From Klebsiella pneumoniae (GTDB lineage Bacteria; Myxococcota_A; UBA796; GCA-2862545), in contig CAMASI010000001.1 of assembly GCA_945861065.1 (NCBI GenBank), positions 1-64,000 of the forward strand: DNA of 64,000 nt, read 5' to 3'. This document shows positions 9,863 to 32,330 of the stretch, piece after piece. The first letter of the stretch is position 1. Each line of letters begins with the position of its first letter. The notes under the pieces were generated by a model, which was not told where the DNA came from, searched no databases, and was given only the letters and a program-made list of their open reading frames with translations. Position numbers and translations under genes: made by a program.

Positions 9863-10843
9863 TCAGATGAGTCCGAACACGTAGAACGCAAGCGACTCGA
9901 TGTGCTCGGAACAACCGCTGATGTCGGTCGGCGCAAGTTCGGGCTCAAAGTAGCCGTACGGGTCAATGACGACCTGATCACACACACGCTTGTCCACAAA
10001 CGTGTAGTTCGTCTCATTGACGGTCGTCCCGTCGAGACCCACAAAGCCCGAGACGACGTACGGCTCAAAGTCCGTGGCCCAAGCCGGTCCAACTGCCATC
10101 GCCAATTCCGCCGCATAGGTCGGCGTCATTGGGCCAATGCCGAACGTCCAAGGGAAGATCTGGATGAGGTCGTGAGGGTCCTTCCAACCGTACACGGCTG
10201 GGTCGGCCTGCCCACATGACGTGATGTGTGGCGCCAACGCCAAGTCGAACTGCCACGTCTGCCACATCGTGACCGCACCGGCGGGGTACAACGAGTAGGT
10301 AGCGGGATCGGTGAGCACCGCGTTGTCGTCCAAGTCATAGAAAGACGAACAAAGCAGGTTGAACATCGGGTCGAGGAAGTCGAAGACGACGACCGCTGGG
10401 TAGTCTCCCGAGGCGTAAAGCGTGCTGTCGTGCCAGTCCGTTCCCGACAGATTGCCGGCGAAGCCGATCCCCAAGTATTTCGGCTGAAACGCCACCATGG
10501 CGGGCGGTCCGTCGCCTACTAGGACTTCCGGCCACACACAAAGGGCGTCGCCCGTGTCCTCGGTTGTTGTCGTCGCGCCCGTTTCGCCCCAGATGGTGCC
10601 CGTGTCGCTATCAGCGTCGGAGTCGGAGTCACTATCGGAATCGCTGTCCGCATCTGAGTCGGCGTCGCTATCGGCGTCAGAATCCGAGTCGGAGTCGGAG
10701 TCGGAGTCCGTATCCGTATCGGTGATATTGGTGTCGGTCTCGACCGGCGTTCCGCCCGTGTCCAACGCAGGTTTGTCGGTCTCAAGAAGTTCAGCGCAAC
10801 CGAGAAGGCTGGCGGCAAGGATCGACGGAAGAACAAGGCGCAT
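9863..10843 (-). CDS. Lipoprotein with Ser-Asp repeat linker
   Basis: The third in-frame ATG is chosen (326 aa) because it directly precedes a good signal, ILAASLLGC, with the lipid-bearing Cys at residue 16; earlier starts add five residues. After the anchor comes a Thr/Asp linker and about 40 residues of alternating Ser-Asp/Ala-Asp (roughly residues 40-78). A folded C-terminal domain of about 220 residues with several Cys follows. SD repeats act as extended stalks in staphylococcal surface proteins. Here they would hold the unassigned C-terminal domain away from the outer membrane. The domain has no recognisable family. Confidence 0.75.
   Translation of the reverse strand: MRLVLPSILAASLLGCAELLETDKPALDTGGTPVETDTNITDTDTDSDSDSDSDSDADSDADSDADSDSDSDSDSDADSDTGTIWGETGATTTTEDTGDALCVWPEVLVGDGPPAMVAFQPKYLGIGFAGNLSGTDWHDSTLYASGDYPAVVVFDFLDPMFNLLCSSFYDLDDNAVLTDPATYSLYPAGAVTMWQTWQFDLALAPHITSCGQADPAVYGWKDPHDLIQIFPWTFGIGPMTPTYAAELAMAVGPAWATDFEPYVVSGFVGLDGTTVNETNYTFVDKRVCDQVVIDPYGYFEPELAPTDISGCSEHIESLAFYVFGLI
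10601..10725. repeat. Hexamer-type low-complexity repeat coding the Ser-Asp linker
   Basis: The segment is built from degenerate 6-bp units such as GTCGGA, GTCGCT and GTCACT on the plus strand, coding Ser-Asp and Ala-Asp dipeptides on the minus strand. Unit number should vary between strains by slippage or recombination, changing stalk length. Synonymous codon variation between copies suggests that the repeat is maintained by selection rather than freshly expanded. Confidence 0.8.
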
Positions 10844-10890
10844 CGTCACCATCCACAAGACCCCCAGCCGCTAACCAAGTCCACGCGCGC

Positions 10891-12495
10891 TCACCAAGAT
10901 TCGCGCGGCACGGCGCCCGCAGCCGTCAGGATCGACAACACCTCATCGAGGTCCTCGTGGGTAAACAGCAGGACCAGATCGCCCTCTCGAACGCCAGCAA
11001 GTGCACGAATCGCTGCTTCACGTTCGTTCGCTGCTACCAAGATCTGCGGCCCTCCTTCACGCTCAAGCCTCAGCCGCAACCGACCGGTCACCTCCCCTGG
11101 CACACGGCCTCGCAAGTGGCCCGACAACTCCTTGAGAATGACGCGCGCCGGATCCAAACGCAGGACGGCGTCTCCCAACGCGTCGATAAGCGCGTCGGTT
11201 CGGTCTCCCGCCTGTCCAACGACGACCGTGGTGCGCCCAGCCCACTGTGCAACCAACGGAACAAAGTGGGCGACCGCGTCAGGGGTGTGGCAATAGTCCA
11301 CCACCACACGGGCGCCACGCACATCAAAGAGGTTCATTCGTCCGCGATTGTCCGCGACAGATGCCGTGAATTCTCTGAGCGCTGCTCCGATTGCGGCGCG
11401 GGGCAGCCCCATCGCATGTGCCGTCAACGCGGCAGCCAACGCATTTTGTACGCCATGACGCAGCAAACCTCCAGCGGCAAATGCGAGTTCGGCTTCCGCG
11501 ACGAGCGGCTCACCGCAAAGCCACAAATGCCCGTCCAACGCATAGGCCTCCGCGCCAACGGAACTGCCATCGCGGAATCGAAGCACGGCCACGGTCGGAG
11601 GGTTCCGGCGGATCGAAGCTGCGAGGGCGTCGTCGTCCCCATTCACGACGAGCACGCCGTCGGGGGCCACCCCTCGAGCCACCGTGAGCTTCGCGTCTGC
11701 CATGTCGTGAATGTCGAACAGACCCCACTCTCCGAGGTGGTCCGCACTCACATTCGTCACGACGGCCGCCCGCGCCCCACCGCACACCAACCCGCGTCGC
11801 ATCATGCCACCGCGCGCCGTTTCGAGCACAGCAAAGGTGCATTCGGGGTGACGGAGAAGCAGCCGCGCCGCTTGCGGGCCCGTCCAATCGCCACGCGTCA
11901 GCCACTCGCCAGCGACCCAGATGCCGTCAGAGGACGTCTGACCGACCTGGAAACCGGCGAGCGTGGCCATCCGGGCAAGCAGCCGGGTTGTCGTGGTCTT
12001 TCCGTTCGTGCCAGTCACGAAGACAAAGGGGATCTGTCCAACACTGGGCAATTCGTCGGGAAGTGCCTCAGCATGAAAGCCGACCGCAACCGGTCCCATG
12101 CCGAAAACGACCTCGTCGCCCTCGACAAGACAGCTGCGACCGATGTCTGCGCTCGCAGCCACCGCGGCCCGCAGCCGAGGCCGCTCCAACTCCCGGATCG
12201 CCTCAGCGATTCGCTCTTCCCCGGGACCCAGACCGGCCGCCTGTTCGACGACGTCTGTTGCAGCGAGCGCAAGGTCCACAGGGCAAGCCAGTGCCACTGT
12301 CGCGCCTCCGGGCCACCGACGCACGGCCGTGTGACCGCTCCACCCCAAACGCCGCGCCAACTCCGATGCCGCCTGTTGCCATTGCGCCAGCCAGGCCTCG
12401 GCGTCTTCGCCCTCGAAGACGACCTCCGCCGCCGCGCCTGGGCCGTCGAGCACCATGTGGGGACCCGTGATTCGTCGGGACTGCTGAATTCGCAT
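10891..12495 (-). CDS. Mur ligase-type cyanophycin-synthetase paralogue without ATP-grasp domain
   Basis: A 534-residue protein. The ATG at 12495 overlaps the stop of cphA (ATGA), which fixes the start. Residues 1-150 resemble the cyanophycin synthetase N-domain (RRITGPHMVL compared with RTYVGPNQYA in CphA). The ATP-grasp domain is absent, and the sequence runs directly into a Mur ligase domain with P-loop TGTNGKTTTT (about 162-171), NVSADHLGEWG and a C-terminal DYCHTPDAV motif that is closer to MurE than to the GHNPAAV of CphA. It probably ligates an amino acid to a peptide and may process or extend cyanophycin-like material. CphA2, the known cyanobacterial variant, differs by retaining ATP-grasp. 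Confidence 0.8.
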   Translation of the reverse strand: MRIQQSRRITGPHMVLDGPGAAAEVVFEGEDAEAWLAQWQQAASELARRLGWSGHTAVRRWPGGATVALACPVDLALAATDVVEQAAGLGPGEERIAEAIRELERPRLRAAVAASADIGRSCLVEGDEVVFGMGPVAVGFHAEALPDELPSVGQIPFVFVTGTNGKTTTTRLLARMATLAGFQVGQTSSDGIWVAGEWLTRGDWTGPQAARLLLRHPECTFAVLETARGGMMRRGLVCGGARAAVVTNVSADHLGEWGLFDIHDMADAKLTVARGVAPDGVLVVNGDDDALAASIRRNPPTVAVLRFRDGSSVGAEAYALDGHLWLCGEPLVAEAELAFAAGGLLRHGVQNALAAALTAHAMGLPRAAIGAALREFTASVADNRGRMNLFDVRGARVVVDYCHTPDAVAHFVPLVAQWAGRTTVVVGQAGDRTDALIDALGDAVLRLDPARVILKELSGHLRGRVPGEVTGRLRLRLEREGGPQILVAANEREAAIRALAGVREGDLVLLFTHEDLDEVLSILTAAGAVPRESW

Positions 12496-15263
12496 CAATC
12501 CTCTGTGTCCACGGCGAGTCGCACGCCGCGGTGATCTCGAATGAAACGTTGCCCGCCTTCGGCGGTCTCCTCGACTTCGACGACGACGGGCGTGGGCGCG
12601 ACAGGCGCCTCCTCCCGTTTCCCGCCAAAGTAAATGATCTGTTTCCAACACCGGCTGACTTTGTCGCCAAAGATCAGCACCACGTCGCGCTGCGAGGCCG
12701 TGGACAGCGCGTGTTGGAGCGCCTCGACCTCTGAAGGAATCACAGTGATCCGGTCGGCGGACACCCCTTCGGCAGCAAGGGCCGCAGCCAGGCGGCGTGG
12801 CACATCGCCCGGAGGACGGCCCCTGCGATCGTCGTCTTCGCGCAGAATGAATTGGTCAAACGTGCGCGCGGCGCGACGGCCAATGGCATCGATGTCTACA
12901 TCCCTTCGGTCTCCTGGCGCCGCGAGCACCACCCTTCGAGCCCCGACCGCGCCTTCGGACAACCGGTCTACGAGGTCGCACATCGCAGACACCGCCGCGG
13001 GGTTGTGTCCATAGTCGAGAATCACCTTGAAACCATGATTGTCGTACACGTTCATGCGGCCCGGCGCCTGAAAGAACGTCGTGTCGAAGGTGCGAAGTCC
13101 ATGGCGTATGTCGTCGAGTTTCACGCCCATCGCGTACGCCATCCCAGCGGCAAACATCGCGTTCACCACGTTGTGCGCGGCACGCCCCTCCAGCGTCGCA
13201 GGAATCAAATGGGTCCACAACAAGGGGATGTGGGCGCCCTTGTCGTACAGCGTGATCATCTGCCCGTTCACCCCGGCCTCCAACGCAACGGCCCGTCCGC
13301 CGGCGCGTACATGCTCCCTCACCAGCATGTTGCTCGGCGAGGTGGTCACGTAGCAGATGTGTTTGGCGACGCTGTGTTCAGCCATCTGGTTGCACCGATG
13401 GTCATCGGCATTGAGTACAACGGTGTCGCGCGCCACTTCGATGGGAATTCGTTTGATTTCGGCGAGTTGATCGAGGGTGTCCACGCCGCGATTGCCGAGG
13501 TGATCCTCCGACACGTTCAGGCAACAGGAAACGTCCGGATGCCGAAATCCAAGTCCGGCCCGAAGGAGACCGCCCCTTGCCACCTCAAGGATCGCACAGT
13601 CCACGGTGGGGTCCTTGAGCACCATATGCGCGGCCACCGGACCCGTCATGTCCCCTTCCACCGTGCGTTGACCGTCCACATAAACGCCGTCGGTCGTCGT
13701 CATGCCCACGGTGCGACCGACCAACTTGTGGATGTGGGCCAGCATCCTTGTGGTCGTCGTCTTTCCATTTGTTCCGCTGATGGTGGCGATCGGGATGCGC
13801 GACGGTCGGCCCGGCGGGAAGAGCATGTCCAGAACTGCGCCAGCGACGTCGCGCGGTGTGCCTTCCGAAGGCGCCACGTGCATACGGAACCCAGGGGCGG
13901 CGTTGACCTCGCAGATGCCGCCTCCCACGTCTTTGTACGAGCGCGTGATGTCGGGGGACAAGAAGTCTACGCCACACACATCCAAACCCACCGCAGACGC
14001 CGCGCGCACAGCCATGTCGCGGTTGTCGGGGTGGATGACGTCGGTCACGTCGATGGCCGTCCCACCCGTGGACAGGTTGCCGGTGGTGCGAAGAAAAAAC
14101 ACATCGCCGACCGCGAGTACTGACGCCGGCGTGTGTCCGGCGTCGGCGAGTAGCCTCAACGCCTGTGCATCCATTTCCAAGCGCGTCAGCGTCTTTTCGT
14201 GCCCAACACCCCTTCGCGGGTCGCTGTTGATGATGTCCACAAGTTCGCCGATCGTATGAACACCGTCTCCGACCACATGACCGGGCACGCGCTTGCTGGC
14301 GGCGACCAAGCTGCCGTCTACGACCAACAGCCGGTGATCCAAGCCGACAATCATCTGCTCGACGAGCACGGTGCGGGCGTGTTCTCGTGCGCTCGTGTAG
14401 GCCGTTCGCACCTGTTCCTCGGTCGTCAGCCCAATGCTCACGCCGCGCCCGTGGTTGGCGTCTAGAGGTTTGACCACGACCGGATAGCCAATTCGCCTCG
14501 CGGCCCGGGCAGCTTCGTCCTCCCGAAACACCGAGGTCTGTTTTGGCACCGGCAAACCGATTTCGCCAAGGAGCTTGTTGGTCAGTTCCTTGTCCGACGC
14601 GATTTCCACCGCGATGTGACGCGTTTCGCTGGTGACTGTCGCCTGAATGCGGCGTTGATGCCGACCGTGTCCAAACTGAACCAAACTCGCATCGTTGAGG
14701 CGAATCCAGGGAATGTCCCTTTCGGCAGCGGCGCGAACCAAAGACAACGTGCTCGGACCAAATGCGCGCCGTTCCGCACCGCGCAAGAAACCCTCCATCT
14801 CCGCCTTGAAGTCAAAGTCGGCCGTGTCCCCAGCGCCGACCAGGTCCTTCGGCACCAAGGCGTGCAACGTCTCGAGCGCGAGCGTCGCGACCTGTTGCCC
14901 GATCCACGCGTCCTCGTATTCGTAGACCACATGGTATTGGCCGACGACGCCCGTCCCGCGGGTCTTGCCGAACGTCACACGGTTTCCGGCGAGATTCTGC
15001 ATCTCGATCGCCACATGTTCCATCACGTGGCCCATCCAGGTCCCGCCGTCCTCCGTCAACCTTCGGACGAAACCACCAGGTTCACCGTACGAACAGCCGT
15101 GCTCTCGCAACGTCGGCATCCAAGCCAACAACCCGTCGACGAAACCCGGCAGCGCGCCCGAAGGGTGATGCTCCAAGGCGCCGAGGTCCAGCGTCAGGCG
15201 GATGACGGGAAAACGCGCGTACTGGTTCGGGCCAACATACGTTCGCTGCTCAACGACGACCAT
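12495..15263 (-). CDS. cphA: Cyanophycin synthetase
   Basis: Makes the storage polymer multi-L-arginyl-poly-L-aspartate from Asp, Arg and ATP. The ATG at 15263 (922 aa) is chosen over an upstream GTG because VEQRTYVGPNQYAR matches the usual CphA N-terminus and GAGGG lies seven bases upstream. Order: N-domain 1-150, ATP-grasp about 200-470 (VVVKPLDANHGRGVS loop; CEVNAAPGFRMH metal site), Mur ligase from about 490 with P-loop SGTNGKTTTT (496-505), NVSEDHLGNRG, and a C-domain with DYGHNPAAV. Both active sites look complete. It follows a coupled minus-strand gene chain after 80 bp and is coupled to the Mur-ligase paralogue downstream. No cyanophycinase is in the window. Confidence 0.93.
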   Translation of the reverse strand: MVVVEQRTYVGPNQYARFPVIRLTLDLGALEHHPSGALPGFVDGLLAWMPTLREHGCSYGEPGGFVRRLTEDGGTWMGHVMEHVAIEMQNLAGNRVTFGKTRGTGVVGQYHVVYEYEDAWIGQQVATLALETLHALVPKDLVGAGDTADFDFKAEMEGFLRGAERRAFGPSTLSLVRAAAERDIPWIRLNDASLVQFGHGRHQRRIQATVTSETRHIAVEIASDKELTNKLLGEIGLPVPKQTSVFREDEAARAARRIGYPVVVKPLDANHGRGVSIGLTTEEQVRTAYTSAREHARTVLVEQMIVGLDHRLLVVDGSLVAASKRVPGHVVGDGVHTIGELVDIINSDPRRGVGHEKTLTRLEMDAQALRLLADAGHTPASVLAVGDVFFLRTTGNLSTGGTAIDVTDVIHPDNRDMAVRAASAVGLDVCGVDFLSPDITRSYKDVGGGICEVNAAPGFRMHVAPSEGTPRDVAGAVLDMLFPPGRPSRIPIATISGTNGKTTTTRMLAHIHKLVGRTVGMTTTDGVYVDGQRTVEGDMTGPVAAHMVLKDPTVDCAILEVARGGLLRAGLGFRHPDVSCCLNVSEDHLGNRGVDTLDQLAEIKRIPIEVARDTVVLNADDHRCNQMAEHSVAKHICYVTTSPSNMLVREHVRAGGRAVALEAGVNGQMITLYDKGAHIPLLWTHLIPATLEGRAAHNVVNAMFAAGMAYAMGVKLDDIRHGLRTFDTTFFQAPGRMNVYDNHGFKVILDYGHNPAAVSAMCDLVDRLSEGAVGARRVVLAAPGDRRDVDIDAIGRRAARTFDQFILREDDDRRGRPPGDVPRRLAAALAAEGVSADRITVIPSEVEALQHALSTASQRDVVLIFGDKVSRCWKQIIYFGGKREEAPVAPTPVVVEVEETAEGGQRFIRDHRGVRLAVDTED

Positions 15264-28188: not shown

Positions 28189-30885
28189 TCAGCGGTCCAG
28201 CGACCTCCCCACCAACGTCACCAGGACACCGAGTCCGGCGATATCGCCGGCGGCTACGGCCTCCTCGAGCTGTCCGCCCAAGCGAGAGATCTCGGGAAAT
28301 CCATACGGCGTTCCGCTTCCTTTCATCGAGTGTCCCATGCGGCCGATTTCGGAAAGCACGCCCCGTTCCAGCGCGAGTCGCATCGCCTCGACATCCTTCC
28401 GACGGTTTTGAATGTAGGTCGGCACGAGGTCGGCGATGTCCGGATCGACGTTGGGTAGCGGCGTCTCAGACGTCACGGCCGCCAACGGCTCCCCGGAAAC
28501 CGAGGTCCGTAAACAGGCTGAAACTGCCTCGATAAAATCCATCTTGATAATCGGCTTGGCTAAATAGGCTGTGCACCCCGCGGCCAAACAACGCGCCTTC
28601 GCCGCTTGGCCCGAATGACCCGTGACGGCAAGAATCGGCAGCCCCATATGCTGCGGAAAAGAGCGAAGTACCCGCGCAGCCTGAAACCCATCCATGACGG
28701 GCATTTCCATGTCCAGTACAACAAGATCAATCGGGTTCTGTCGGACAGCGCGAATCACCTCCTCCCCGTTCGTCGCAACCAACACTTCGGCACCGGCCGC
28801 GACCAGTCTTTCCCGCATGAGCGCCCTGTTATCGGGATCGTCGTCAGCAACTAGAATCGTCGGAACCAACCGTACCCAACGTTCAACCACGCCCAAAAGC
28901 CGGTCCCGGCTCACCGGCTTCGTCAGGAAGTCGTCCATTCCAGCGCGCACACAACGCTGCCGAACTGCATCTGTCGCATGGGCAGTAAAGGCCACGATCG
29001 CCCTCCGCCCCCGCTGCAACATCACCTCGTCAGACCGAATGTGCGCCGTGGCCTCAATCCCGTCCATCACGGGCATGTGCACGTCCATAAGGATGACGTC
29101 AAACGCCTGGGTGCGCGCCTTCAAAACGCCGTCTCGGCCATCGTGAGCGACCACCACACGATGACCCGCGGACTCGAGAATTGCGAGTGCGACCTGCTGA
29201 TTGTCGGCGCTGTCTTCAACGACCAGCACGTCTGCGCCTCGATGAAGGCGCACACCGTCTGGAGGCTGCGGCGCACGCGCCTTGCCCCGCGTGGGTGTCG
29301 TGGGCGCGGAAAGCGACTCGTCGAGCGTGGAAGTCGGCCATCGCATTGTTGACCCCGCACTGCCGTCGACAGCAGCGATGAGCGCCGCGAGGCGCGGAGG
29401 CCGCACCAACATCGCTTCGAACGTGCCCTCACCTCCCGCGAAACTCCTCGTCGGATCCACGCAAAGGATTCGCCTCACGCCGCGACGAGAGGCGCGCACC
29501 TGCACCATCGCCGCCGCACCCTCGGGGTCGTCTAAATCTTGGTCCACCACGACCGCGTCCGGAGAGAAACCCGCATCCAACAACTGCTTCACCTCTGCGG
29601 CGCTCGTGGCGCTTGCCACCTTGGCGCCAGATTCCTTCGACGCCTCGACCATCCAAGCCCTCGCAATTGGGTGCGGATCGGCCACAATAACAGCGAGTCC
29701 GGCCAAGCGGCCCTCAAAGGCAGACGGCGCAACCGTACACGCCATTGGTATCCGCACCCTGAACATGCTCCCGCGACCGACTTCACTTCGCAGTTCGATC
29801 TTCCCCCCCATAAGTAGCACCAGCGAACGCGTAATGGAGAGGCCGAGACCGGTGCCGCTGACCCTCCCGGTTGGGTTGTGGGCGGCCCGATAGAATTTCG
29901 AGAAAATGAGCCCTTGGTCTCGCGTCGAGATTCCTACCCCAGTGTCGATGATCGCAAGGACCATTTCGTGCCCGGAGGCGTCGTCGTCTCTAGGCCGAAA
30001 CCTAAGCCGAACAACCACCTCGCCCTGTTGAGTGTATTTAATCGCGTTCGACAGCAAATTCATGACTATTTGCCGGAGGCGGTGCACGTCGCCCATGACC
30101 TCTACGGCGGCACCCGGTGTGACGTCGCACAAGAGGCGCAACCCCTTGCGCGAGGCGGAAACAGCCAAGAATTCCACGACTTCTTCGACGACGTCGACAA
30201 TCGAACAAGGTGCAGACTCCAGATCCATCTGTCCCGCTTCAATCTTCGAGAAGTCGAGAATATCGGTAATCAGGTAAAGCAACGCCTCCGTATTCATTCG
30301 GACCGTTTGTAGGAGTCGACGCTGCCGGACCGTGAGCTCTGTGTCCAAGGTCAGCTCGGTCATACCAATAATTGCGTTGAGCGGCGTACGAATTTCGTGG
30401 CTAATATGGGCCAGAAAATCCGACTTCGCCTGGCTCGCAGCCTCGGCCGCGTCTTTTGACCGAGCGAGCAGGGCCGCGGCACGCCGACGCTCGGTCGTTT
30501 CTCGTGCGCACACCGCGAGCCCACGGGGCTGCCCATTTACAACCATCGGAGTGACAAAAATATCGAAACTCAGGGCCCCCTCGCCGACGCCGCTCACCCA
30601 CTCATGCCGCACCGTGTCCCCCGCGAGGCCTCGGGCATACACTGTGCGCCATTCTGCTTGGGAGCCGGGCACGTGGCAGTCCAAGACGGACACGCCCGGC
30701 AGCGGGCGGCGTTGCAATCCCGCGAGGTCGGCGAAGGCCTGATTGAATGCAATTAGCCGTAAGTCGCCGTCCAAGGACCATACGGGGTCCACGACATGTT
30801 CCAACAGGGCGTGGTGATCACCCAGCCTCAGTTGCCCCTCAGCGTCGTCTGCCGATGGGCCGCCGCCCGCGCCTTTTCGACTCAC
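28189..30885 (-). CDS. Hybrid sensor histidine kinase (PAS-HisKA-HATPase-REC-REC-REC-Hpt)
   Basis: An 898-residue protein; the GTG start overlaps the regulator's stop (GTGA). PAS-type sensor at about 22-140, phospho-acceptor His163 in SHEIRTPLN, and ATPase at about 265-382 with N-box NLLSNAIKYT, G1 DTGVGIS and G2 GTGLGLS. A degenerate receiver follows at about 395-505, with Asp448 kept but the conserved Lys replaced by Arg495. Two complete receivers have Asp601 and Asp725. A C-terminal Hpt domain has His852 in GHSMKGSG. There is no transmembrane segment, so sensing is cytoplasmic. It is the last gene of the ATP-grasp/regulator operon, and its natural target is the adjacent NtrC-type regulator. 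Confidence 0.93.
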   Translation of the reverse strand: MSRKGAGGGPSADDAEGQLRLGDHHALLEHVVDPVWSLDGDLRLIAFNQAFADLAGLQRRPLPGVSVLDCHVPGSQAEWRTVYARGLAGDTVRHEWVSGVGEGALSFDIFVTPMVVNGQPRGLAVCARETTERRRAAALLARSKDAAEAASQAKSDFLAHISHEIRTPLNAIIGMTELTLDTELTVRQRRLLQTVRMNTEALLYLITDILDFSKIEAGQMDLESAPCSIVDVVEEVVEFLAVSASRKGLRLLCDVTPGAAVEVMGDVHRLRQIVMNLLSNAIKYTQQGEVVVRLRFRPRDDDASGHEMVLAIIDTGVGISTRDQGLIFSKFYRAAHNPTGRVSGTGLGLSITRSLVLLMGGKIELRSEVGRGSMFRVRIPMACTVAPSAFEGRLAGLAVIVADPHPIARAWMVEASKESGAKVASATSAAEVKQLLDAGFSPDAVVVDQDLDDPEGAAAMVQVRASRRGVRRILCVDPTRSFAGGEGTFEAMLVRPPRLAALIAAVDGSAGSTMRWPTSTLDESLSAPTTPTRGKARAPQPPDGVRLHRGADVLVVEDSADNQQVALAILESAGHRVVVAHDGRDGVLKARTQAFDVILMDVHMPVMDGIEATAHIRSDEVMLQRGRRAIVAFTAHATDAVRQRCVRAGMDDFLTKPVSRDRLLGVVERWVRLVPTILVADDDPDNRALMRERLVAAGAEVLVATNGEEVIRAVRQNPIDLVVLDMEMPVMDGFQAARVLRSFPQHMGLPILAVTGHSGQAAKARCLAAGCTAYLAKPIIKMDFIEAVSACLRTSVSGEPLAAVTSETPLPNVDPDIADLVPTYIQNRRKDVEAMRLALERGVLSEIGRMGHSMKGSGTPYGFPEISRLGGQLEEAVAAGDIAGLGVLVTLVGRSLDR

Positions 30886-32330
30886 GAATCCGCAATCTTA
30901 TATTTCTTGAGCTTTCTGTACAGGGTCGTTCTTGGAATTCCAAGCTGGCGAATCACTTCGCTCATGTTGCCGCTGGTCGCCTGAATTGCCGCCTCAATTA
31001 GACTTTTCTCAGATTCATCGCGAGTAATCGGAGTTCTCGGGGCTAGAAAAGTGGGTTCCTGCGACCCGTGCCGAGAATCCGATTGGTGCGTTTGCGCTGG
31101 GATTGGCGTTCCCATTCCCTGGATGGCATCACGAATGCGCCTTGGAAGGTCCTCCAGTCGCACCTCGTCCGAAAGGCTGGCGACCAAAGCGCGTTCCACG
31201 GCGTTCTGGATTTCACGCACGTTCCCCGGCCAACTGTATTTCTGGATCGCCGCGACCGCCGACTCCGAAAATCGCGCCCTCGGCCGATCGTGTCGCGCCG
31301 CAAAGTCTGCCAGAAAATGTTGCCCCAAAAGTACCGTGTCCTCGGGCCGGTCCCGTAGCGGCGGGATTTCGAGCTCAAAAACTGCTAGTCGGTAAAATAG
31401 ATCCTCACGGAAGCGCCCCTTCCGCACAGAGGCGTGCAAGTCCTCGTTGGTTGCACACACGATGCGGACGTCTACTTCAATCTCTTCGTTCCCCCCGACC
31501 CGATAAAACCGTCGTTCCTGAAGCACCCGCAGGAGCTTCGCTTGCAACCCAAACGACAGCTCTCCCACCTCATCCAAAAAGAGCGTCCCTTTGTCGGCCT
31601 GCTCAAAACGGCCCGACCGCCGTCCCGCGGCGCCCGTAAATGCACCCTTCTCGTGTCCGAAGAGCTCAGTCTCTTGAAGCGTATCGGGTATCGCCGCGCA
31701 GTTGATGGCAACGAAGGGCCGATCGCGTCGATTCGAATTCGAGTGGATGGCCCTCGCAACAAGTTCTTTGCCCGTGCCACTCTCGCCCGTGACCAGGACG
31801 GTGACATCGCTTGGGCCGACCCTATCCAGCTGTCGGTACACCCGACGCATCGCCGGAGATACGCCGATGATTCCGGCGTACGCGCTGCCGCCGTCCCCGC
31901 GTTCCGCCGCACGCAAGGTCCGAGAGTGCACGTTGTGATCGATGGCGGCTTTCACCGCGGCGACCAGGCGTGTGCGATCCACGGGTTTGGTCAGGTAGTC
32001 GTAAGCGCCGACCTGGATGGCGCGAACCGCCTTCGGAACACCCGCATCGGCCGTCAACATCAGAACCGGAACGTGCGGATGCCGTCCTCGAACCCACTCC
32101 AGTACCGTCATGCCACCAATGCCCTCCATATGGAGGTCCAACAGAATGGCATCTGGAATGATTCGGTCAAGCGCGAACAACAAGCTTGCGCCGTCGTCGT
32201 AACCCTCCGCTTGGATTCCGGCGCGTTCCAGCCAACGTTGCACCAGAATCCGGTGGCTCTCATCGTCATCTACGACGAGAACGACCGGAAGGTACGTACC
32301 CTCCACTGGCCCAAGCCCGGGCGCCGCCAT
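30882..32330 (-). CDS. NtrC-family sigma54-dependent response regulator
   Basis: A 482-residue protein. Receiver domain at residues 15-130 with phospho-acceptor Asp65, Thr93 and Lys115. The AAA+ sigma54-interaction domain (about 153-390) has Walker A GESGTGKE (182-189), the sigma54-contact loop GAFTGA (229-234) and Walker B LFLDEVGEL. The C-terminal Fis-type HTH (about 440-478) ends LGIPRTTLYRKLKKYKI. It activates sigma54 promoters on phosphorylation. The gene overlaps the hybrid kinase gene and follows the second ATP-grasp gene after 60 bp. The targets may be the ligase operon itself and the giant lipoprotein gene divergent from it. Confidence 0.93.
   Translation of the reverse strand: MAAPGLGPVEGTYLPVVLVVDDDESHRILVQRWLERAGIQAEGYDDGASLLFALDRIIPDAILLDLHMEGIGGMTVLEWVRGRHPHVPVLMLTADAGVPKAVRAIQVGAYDYLTKPVDRTRLVAAVKAAIDHNVHSRTLRAAERGDGGSAYAGIIGVSPAMRRVYRQLDRVGPSDVTVLVTGESGTGKELVARAIHSNSNRRDRPFVAINCAAIPDTLQETELFGHEKGAFTGAAGRRSGRFEQADKGTLFLDEVGELSFGLQAKLLRVLQERRFYRVGGNEEIEVDVRIVCATNEDLHASVRKGRFREDLFYRLAVFELEIPPLRDRPEDTVLLGQHFLADFAARHDRPRARFSESAVAAIQKYSWPGNVREIQNAVERALVASLSDEVRLEDLPRRIRDAIQGMGTPIPAQTHQSDSRHGSQEPTFLAPRTPITRDESEKSLIEAAIQATSGNMSEVIRQLGIPRTTLYRKLKKYKIADS

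Follow-up and report, generated by a model that had tools for sequence, protein, structure and literature searches.

The window analysed here, a stretch of 64,000 nucleotides, carries on its minus strand a gene (cphA) for cyanophycin synthetase, which makes the bacterial nitrogen-storage polymer cyanophycin, directly followed by a second gene, labelled PAR in this work, which encodes a CphA-derived companion protein. The features of the pair are:

12495 to 15263, minus strand: cphA, full-length cyanophycin synthetase of 922 aa with N, ATP-grasp and Mur domains (translation and domain matches)
14784 to 15263, minus strand: CphA residues 1-160, N domain (Pfam, PF18921)
15015 to 15029, minus strand: CphA motif H79-x-x-E82-H83 (sequence; motif described in PMC9262961)
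13806 to 14618, minus strand: CphA residues 216-486, ATP-grasp region, missing from PAR (domain matches)
12498 to 12638, minus strand: CphA residues 876-922, C-terminal tail with a variable linker (clade alignment)
12498 to 12545, minus strand: last 16 residues of CphA, conserved motif (here IRDHRGVRLA) and acidic end, with the terminal Asp codon at 12498-12500
12495 to 12497, minus strand: cphA stop codon, whose final A also opens the PAR start codon (TGATG)
10891 to 12495, minus strand: PAR, CphA-derived companion of 534 aa without ATP-grasp (translation, domains, family and tree)
12145 to 12465, minus strand: PAR residues 11-117, N domain with the predicted fold of the CphA1 N domain, HxxEH missing (profiles, model and motif count)
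12076 to 12183, minus strand: PAR residues 105-140, remnant of the CphA pre-ATP-grasp segment (profile E 1e-4; reversed profile, 0.19)
10894 to 12039, minus strand: PAR residues 153-534, complete Mur ligase domain of the CphA type, in which the catalytic residues are kept (domains and alignment)

The cphA gene runs from an ATG at 15263 to a stop at 12497-12495, and its product is complete as judged by a score of 1103 bits against TIGR02068 (cut-off 850). The HxxEH motif in its N domain is a zinc-peptidase motif that makes primers in CphA1 N domains, according to PMC9262961. PAR extends from an ATG at 12495-12493 to a stop at 10893-10891, with AGAGG four bases upstream of the ATG. This layout, together with the one-base stop/start overlap, indicates that the two genes are probably translationally coupled. 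Just downstream of PAR and on its strand lies a gene for a predicted lipoprotein whose long linker is made of Asp/Ser repeats (9863-10858). Elsewhere in the window (28189-32330), a hybrid sensor histidine kinase gene overlaps a gene for an NtrC-type response regulator. The genome probably belongs to a myxobacterial lineage, since it has eight MYXO-CTERM matches above cut-off, compared with none in 14 control genomes.

Domain composition and descent of PAR

In PAR, only Mur_ligase_M and Mur_ligase_C exceeded the Pfam cut-off, and none of its three domain matches belonged to an ATP-grasp family, the domain for Asp addition in CphA1, compared with several of the 15 matches of CphA. The domain searches of both proteins thus bear out an earlier sequence-only reading of this DNA, in which PAR had been described as having a complete Mur ligase domain and no ATP-grasp. 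PAR is 36% identical to the neighbouring CphA over 391 columns, and since it also belongs to a conserved family, this likeness is not due to chance.

The sequence-only reading had further proposed that PAR keeps the start of the CphA-type N domain. Residues 1-150 gave no match to the Pfam CphA N-domain model. In profile-profile comparisons, the first ~50 residues aligned with the start of the CphA N domain (E 2.7e-6; reversed control E 0.32) and residues ~100-140 with the segment preceding ATP-grasp (E 1e-4; reversed control 0.19), the reversed-profile controls having a probability of at most 0.3%. An AlphaFold2 model of residues 1-152, built from the single sequence (pLDDT 57, core 67-80), was compared with 995 PDB chains using VIA-align, and ranks 1-7 were all occupied by CphA1, six of them at Z 7.1-7.3 and one at 5.8, values that are middling by the tool's own note, with the next rows at 5.4. 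The alignments covered 98-101 residues and mapped onto CphA1 residues 1-161. Foldseek returned no match to this model at E < 0.001, and a single-sequence model of the whole of PAR was poor (pLDDT 40) and was left unused. Based on the profiles and the fold comparison, residues 1-150 are homologous to the CphA N domain, in agreement with the proposal. The HxxEH peptidase motif was found in none of 58 PARs. As judged from its sequence, PAR reads as an N domain, a pre-ATP-grasp stub and a Mur domain, that is, as a CphA minus ATP-grasp and minus the peptidase motif, which retains one of the two bond-forming halves of the synthetase.

The NCBIfam model scoring best against PAR was that of cyanophycin synthetase (TIGR02068, 281.8 bits over the Mur part), while the best MurE model reached 96.1 bits; scores against the murE model (86.3 bits, cut-off 257.3) and the folC model (36.4 bits, cut-off 162.65) were below cut-off. 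Trees were built with FastTree. In a Mur-domain tree of 134 sequences, which omits L099 and L107_1 (CphAs whose P-loop motif could not be read), PAR formed a single clade of 47 sequences (support 0.991) that sits next to all CphAs (support 0.87); MurE lies outside. The model scores and the separate clade rule out an assignment of PAR to MurE or FolC. PAR has in common with MurE (UDP-MurNAc-tripeptide ligases) the Mur ligase fold and the ATP-binding motifs, but differs in its CphA-type N domain as well as in its clade and scores. The motif DYCHTPDA, which had been called MurE-like, is present in PAR as a private variant: N takes the place of its T in 44 of the 47 family members, and the family consensus is DFAHNP. 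A scan of the genome_contigs collection revealed MurE-like relatives only, at 23-30% identity, except for one 36-residue piece at 50%; a search of viral contigs gave one weak match, which was left unused.

Among known systems, PAR resembles CphA1 (PDB 7LG5, 7LGQ and 7WAC) in its predicted N-domain fold, its full-length Mur domain and its cyanophycinase neighbourhood, but differs by the absence of ATP-grasp and HxxEH and by changed residues near the presumed amino-acid pocket. PMC9262961 describes the cyanobacterial CphA2 as a CphA paralogue that polymerises beta-Asp-Arg dipeptides and lacks the peptidase motif of the N domain; PAR shares this lack. The activity of CphA2 needs ATP-grasp, whereas PAR keeps the Mur site instead; the earlier suggestion that PAR represents the opposite deletion fits the descriptions of an enzyme working via its ATP-grasp side in PMC9262961 and PMC9427784.

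Other proteins with the N domain fused straight to the Mur domain were also found. A 622-aa CphA form without ATP-grasp in Legionella adelaidensis (WP_058462805.1; L124 4236-6104, plasmid NZ_LR134428.1) has an intact N domain with HxxEH, and its gene adjoins those for cyanophycinase and isoaspartyl peptidase, with no cphA beside it. Three of 247 genomes of a Bacteroidota-like class encode N-Mur proteins without ATP-grasp (L157, L158 and L159) and carry a full CphA on another contig; the class was reached via a locus labelled Thalassobius (G282), and its Bacteroidota type is a guess from the CphA sequence. Coverage of the CphA model jumps from 202-208 to 479-481 in the Legionella form, L157 and L158, and from 166 to 487 in L159. 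Unlike PAR, these proteins are nested inside other CphA clades, and the Legionella form retains HxxEH. The nesting implies independent losses of ATP-grasp, with the same cut made several times. Two further CphA-like variants were observed. At L188 (2940-7245), an 829-aa CphA-like protein, with a match that ends inside the Mur domain, is encoded in tandem with a 660-aa N-Mur protein, and the same genome also carries CphA plus PAR. A plasmid of Deinococcus taeanensis (L122, 4621-7137) encodes an 838-aa CphA-like protein, annotated as a Mur ligase family protein, whose match to the CphA model is interrupted in the ATP-grasp part.

Distribution and paired inheritance

A sample of 282 genomes spanning the window's phylum contained PAR in 46 cases, as 43 full-length rows and three fragments (contig breaks or insertion), and all 46 also encode CphA. 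About 24 further genomes have CphA without PAR (both genome counts were read by eye from the results table). In addition, PAR occurs in three of 385 genomes of an alphaproteobacterial class and six of 321 of a second proteobacterial class, the classes being those of the genomes behind loci L056 and L049. The survey considered the best five candidates per genome in the window's phylum and the best three to four in proteobacteria, and absences are to be read as soft. PAR is also found on plasmids of two Ruegeria, Shinella zoogloeoides and a 'Roseateles', where it is annotated as 'Mur ligase family protein'.

In 42 of the 46 genomes, PAR lies directly downstream of cphA on the same strand; in two (G038 and G260) it is on another contig, and in two the arrangement is cut by a contig end. 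Of these 42 junctions, 13 show a one-base overlap and 40 a gap of 49 bases or less. The same order, cphA then PAR, is present in all nine proteobacterial genomes and on the four plasmids. A common gene order is cyanophycinase, cphA, PAR. Within the window's phylum, an S51 peptidase (cyanophycinase family) is encoded upstream at no fewer than 15 of 45 loci and an amidohydrolase at no fewer than 11 of 45. Cyanophycinase over the curated cut-off was detected in 23/23 PAR genomes tested, 6/7 CphA-only genomes and 0/7 genomes without CphA. One PAR (L063) is shortened by a stop near residue 490. The neighbourhood in Ruegeria suggested a link with lysine genes, which was not evident in gene lists (length and first residues) for nine other proteobacterial loci. 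By these comparisons, PAR is a conserved CphA-derived family without ATP-grasp, tied to cyanophycin operons. Neither the companion nor the CphA tail described below is mentioned in the literature searched, which included few subscription papers and does not establish their absence from print.

The PAR and CphA trees mirror each other, with many common groups including the proteobacterial pairs with L094, and the pairwise distances are correlated (0.82 for 40 pairs; 0/5000 permutations as high). Parsimony on a 66-sequence CphA tree required four changes in PAR presence, fitting a history of one gain and a few losses. PAR is under purifying selection (dN/dS 0.09-0.30 in 11 pairs, compared with 0.05-0.13 for CphA), and its protein sequence changes two to four times faster than that of CphA (dN).

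The C-terminal tail of CphA

The CphAs of the PAR-carrying clade extend beyond the Mur domain by a flexible tail of 47-94 residues, consisting of a variable linker, a motif of approximately [VI]xDxRGV[RL][LI]A, an acidic stretch and a final Asp. Motif and terminal Asp were present in all 67 CphAs of this clade (support 0.987), and terminal Asp in none of the 49 outside it. These counts come from a CphA tree of 116 sequences, for which columns with less than 25% gaps were used, so that the tail itself was excluded; the tree omits L111 (the L195 gene), L218 and L103 (contig-end cuts) and L017 (partial). At the last position pairwise identity reaches 1.00; going back over the four preceding ones, it is 0.22, 0.16, 0.64 and 0.12. 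The terminal Asp is encoded by both GAC (37) and GAT (12), and of the 319 gene calls in the neighbourhood, 18 have Asp as their last residue. HxxEH is found in 60 of 61 clade CphAs, the exception being L090, which, as L091, is truncated by the region limits of the analysis.

PAR is missing beside 13 of the 67 tailed CphAs: several lineages have retained CphA but lost PAR, which is thus dispensable. Conversely, both genomes with an unlinked PAR (G038 and G260) have tail-less CphAs (L225 and L226), and PAR seems to have outlived its own CphA partner there. On the evidence of the tree, tail and PAR arose on the same branch, yet are separable. We also considered whether the terminal Asp is a by-product of the ribosome-binding site and start overlap of PAR. 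This is ruled out by its retention in the 13 CphAs without PAR downstream and where the gap between cphA and PAR is 44 to 183 bases, although the acidic residue four from the CphA end may partly be due to this overlap.

CphA1 elongates chains from a C-terminal Asp, with (beta-Asp-Arg)-Asp as the minimal primer, and a C-terminal Asp has been observed beside zinc in the CphA1 N-domain site (both from PMC9262961). As CphA1 extends a C-terminal Asp, the tail is a possible built-in primer.

Ligase site and possible function of PAR

The P-loop lysine, the Mg-binding Glu225, His253, Lys269, Asn351, Arg386, His403 and Arg432 are kept in all 47 PARs, and Asp252 in 46. These residues were matched by motif to SuCphA1 D585/H586 and TeCphA1 K499 and E558, their roles being taken from the literature. 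Other positions differ from CphA: Arg787 (71/71 CphAs) is Ser or Thr in 42/47 PARs, Asp867 (69/71) is His in 42/47, and Asp810 (67 Asp and 3 Glu among 71) has no Asp majority in PARs and adjoins an insertion. Conversely, PAR Arg234 is invariant (47/47), and its CphA counterpart at position 569 is Ala, Ser or Glu. From MurE structures (GDR, DNPR and GKGHE motifs), we take CphA 787, 810 and 867 to lie around the incoming amino acid; a literature search for support of this donor-pocket assignment found none. The counterpart of Asp810 is Val in the three Bacteroidota-like proteins without ATP-grasp and Asp in the Legionella form, which hints that loss of ATP-grasp is accompanied by change at this position.

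The sequence-only reading had suggested that PAR might add or exchange a type of residue in a cyanophycin-like polymer, or be no more than a partner subunit. Because the ligase residues are kept and the presumed donor-pocket residues are changed, a ligase of altered specificity is the likeliest function of PAR; the combination favours, without proving, an active enzyme. PAR would be a catalytically intact Mur-type amide ligase derived from cyanophycin synthetase, minus ATP-grasp and the N-domain peptidase site. Whereas CphA polymerises Asp and Arg, PAR would act beside it in cyanophycin metabolism, unable to lengthen the backbone, and would couple a non-Arg amino acid or an amine to an Asp carboxylate in the polymer, at its end or in a precursor. 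We propose this role tentatively, rating its chances at close to even. The loss of PAR from CphA-bearing lineages, its faster evolution and the shortened L063 form speak against it. The origin of PAR, its domain loss, pairing and co-inheritance with CphA, purifying selection, and its kept catalytic and changed pocket residues are read from the sequences themselves; from these we infer an active PAR with cyanophycin or a piece of it as acceptor and a donor other than Arg.

PAR could instead be a regulatory or structural partner: it would assemble with CphA into mixed oligomers, by way of the Mur or N domains, and adjust activity, the use of primer or the size of granules, its own chemistry being secondary. 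Tight gene coupling and mirrored trees are consistent with such a role, as is an N domain retained without its peptidase motif, like a polymer-holding surface, and the faster evolution of PAR may be of the kind that relaxed or non-catalytic partners show. However, the core ligase residues are kept in 46-47 of 47 PARs, and two PARs occur away from CphA, in genomes whose CphA has no tail and falls outside the clade of the usual partners; we regard a mere partner as unlikely, if a serious contender.

The tail allows a further model, in which clade CphA and PAR would constitute a self-primed synthase of two enzymes, with polymer growing from the tail Asp and PAR capping, starting or re-decorating it with a non-Arg residue. 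The tail would then prime cyanophycin as glycogenin primes glycogen. We consider this model rather unlikely; equally conceivable is a milder form, in which the tail is a product mimic whose terminal Asp plugs the zinc site of the N-domain peptidase.

Another alternative is that PAR is a starter enzyme acting on the C-terminal Asp of the tail, which then becomes a covalent primer. The appearance of tail and PAR on one shared branch among the CphAs, the invariance of the terminal Asp (67/67; identity 1.00 against 0.22 one position earlier) and the use by CphA of a chain with terminal Asp as acceptor (PMC9262961) agree with this. Against it, 13 tailed CphAs occur without PAR, the two unlinked PARs co-occur with tail-less CphAs, and the clade keeps the primer-making HxxEH (60/61), so that there is no obvious need for another way of priming. 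We judge a starter enzyme to be quite unlikely.

It is improbable that PAR is a second Arg ligase, providing more side-chain loading or making beta-Asp-Arg from free amino acids as primer. Its nearest known enzyme is the Mur domain of CphA, and PAR retains the GDR and RGR arginines, but near-invariant CphA positions beside these arginines are altered in PAR, one of them also in the three Bacteroidota-like proteins without ATP-grasp. That PAR is an ordinary peptidoglycan or folate ligase located here by accident, for which the Mur ligase fold could be cited, is hardly credible given its 281.8 bits with TIGR02068, where the best MurE model reaches 96.1, its separate clade next to CphA and another MurE-like gene on contig 74 of the same genome.

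How cyanophycin chains start in cells, and how their composition and length are controlled, is understood only in part. The paired evolution of PAR and CphA across distant bacteria points to a two-enzyme route to make or modify cyanophycin. With the pair spread over one phylum and two classes of proteobacteria, the cyanophycin of many bacteria may differ from the textbook polymer or be controlled in another way. The invariant C-terminal Asp of CphA is the most testable surprise, as it makes the priming question directly accessible to experiment, and CphA or PAR could be of use in making modified polyamides.
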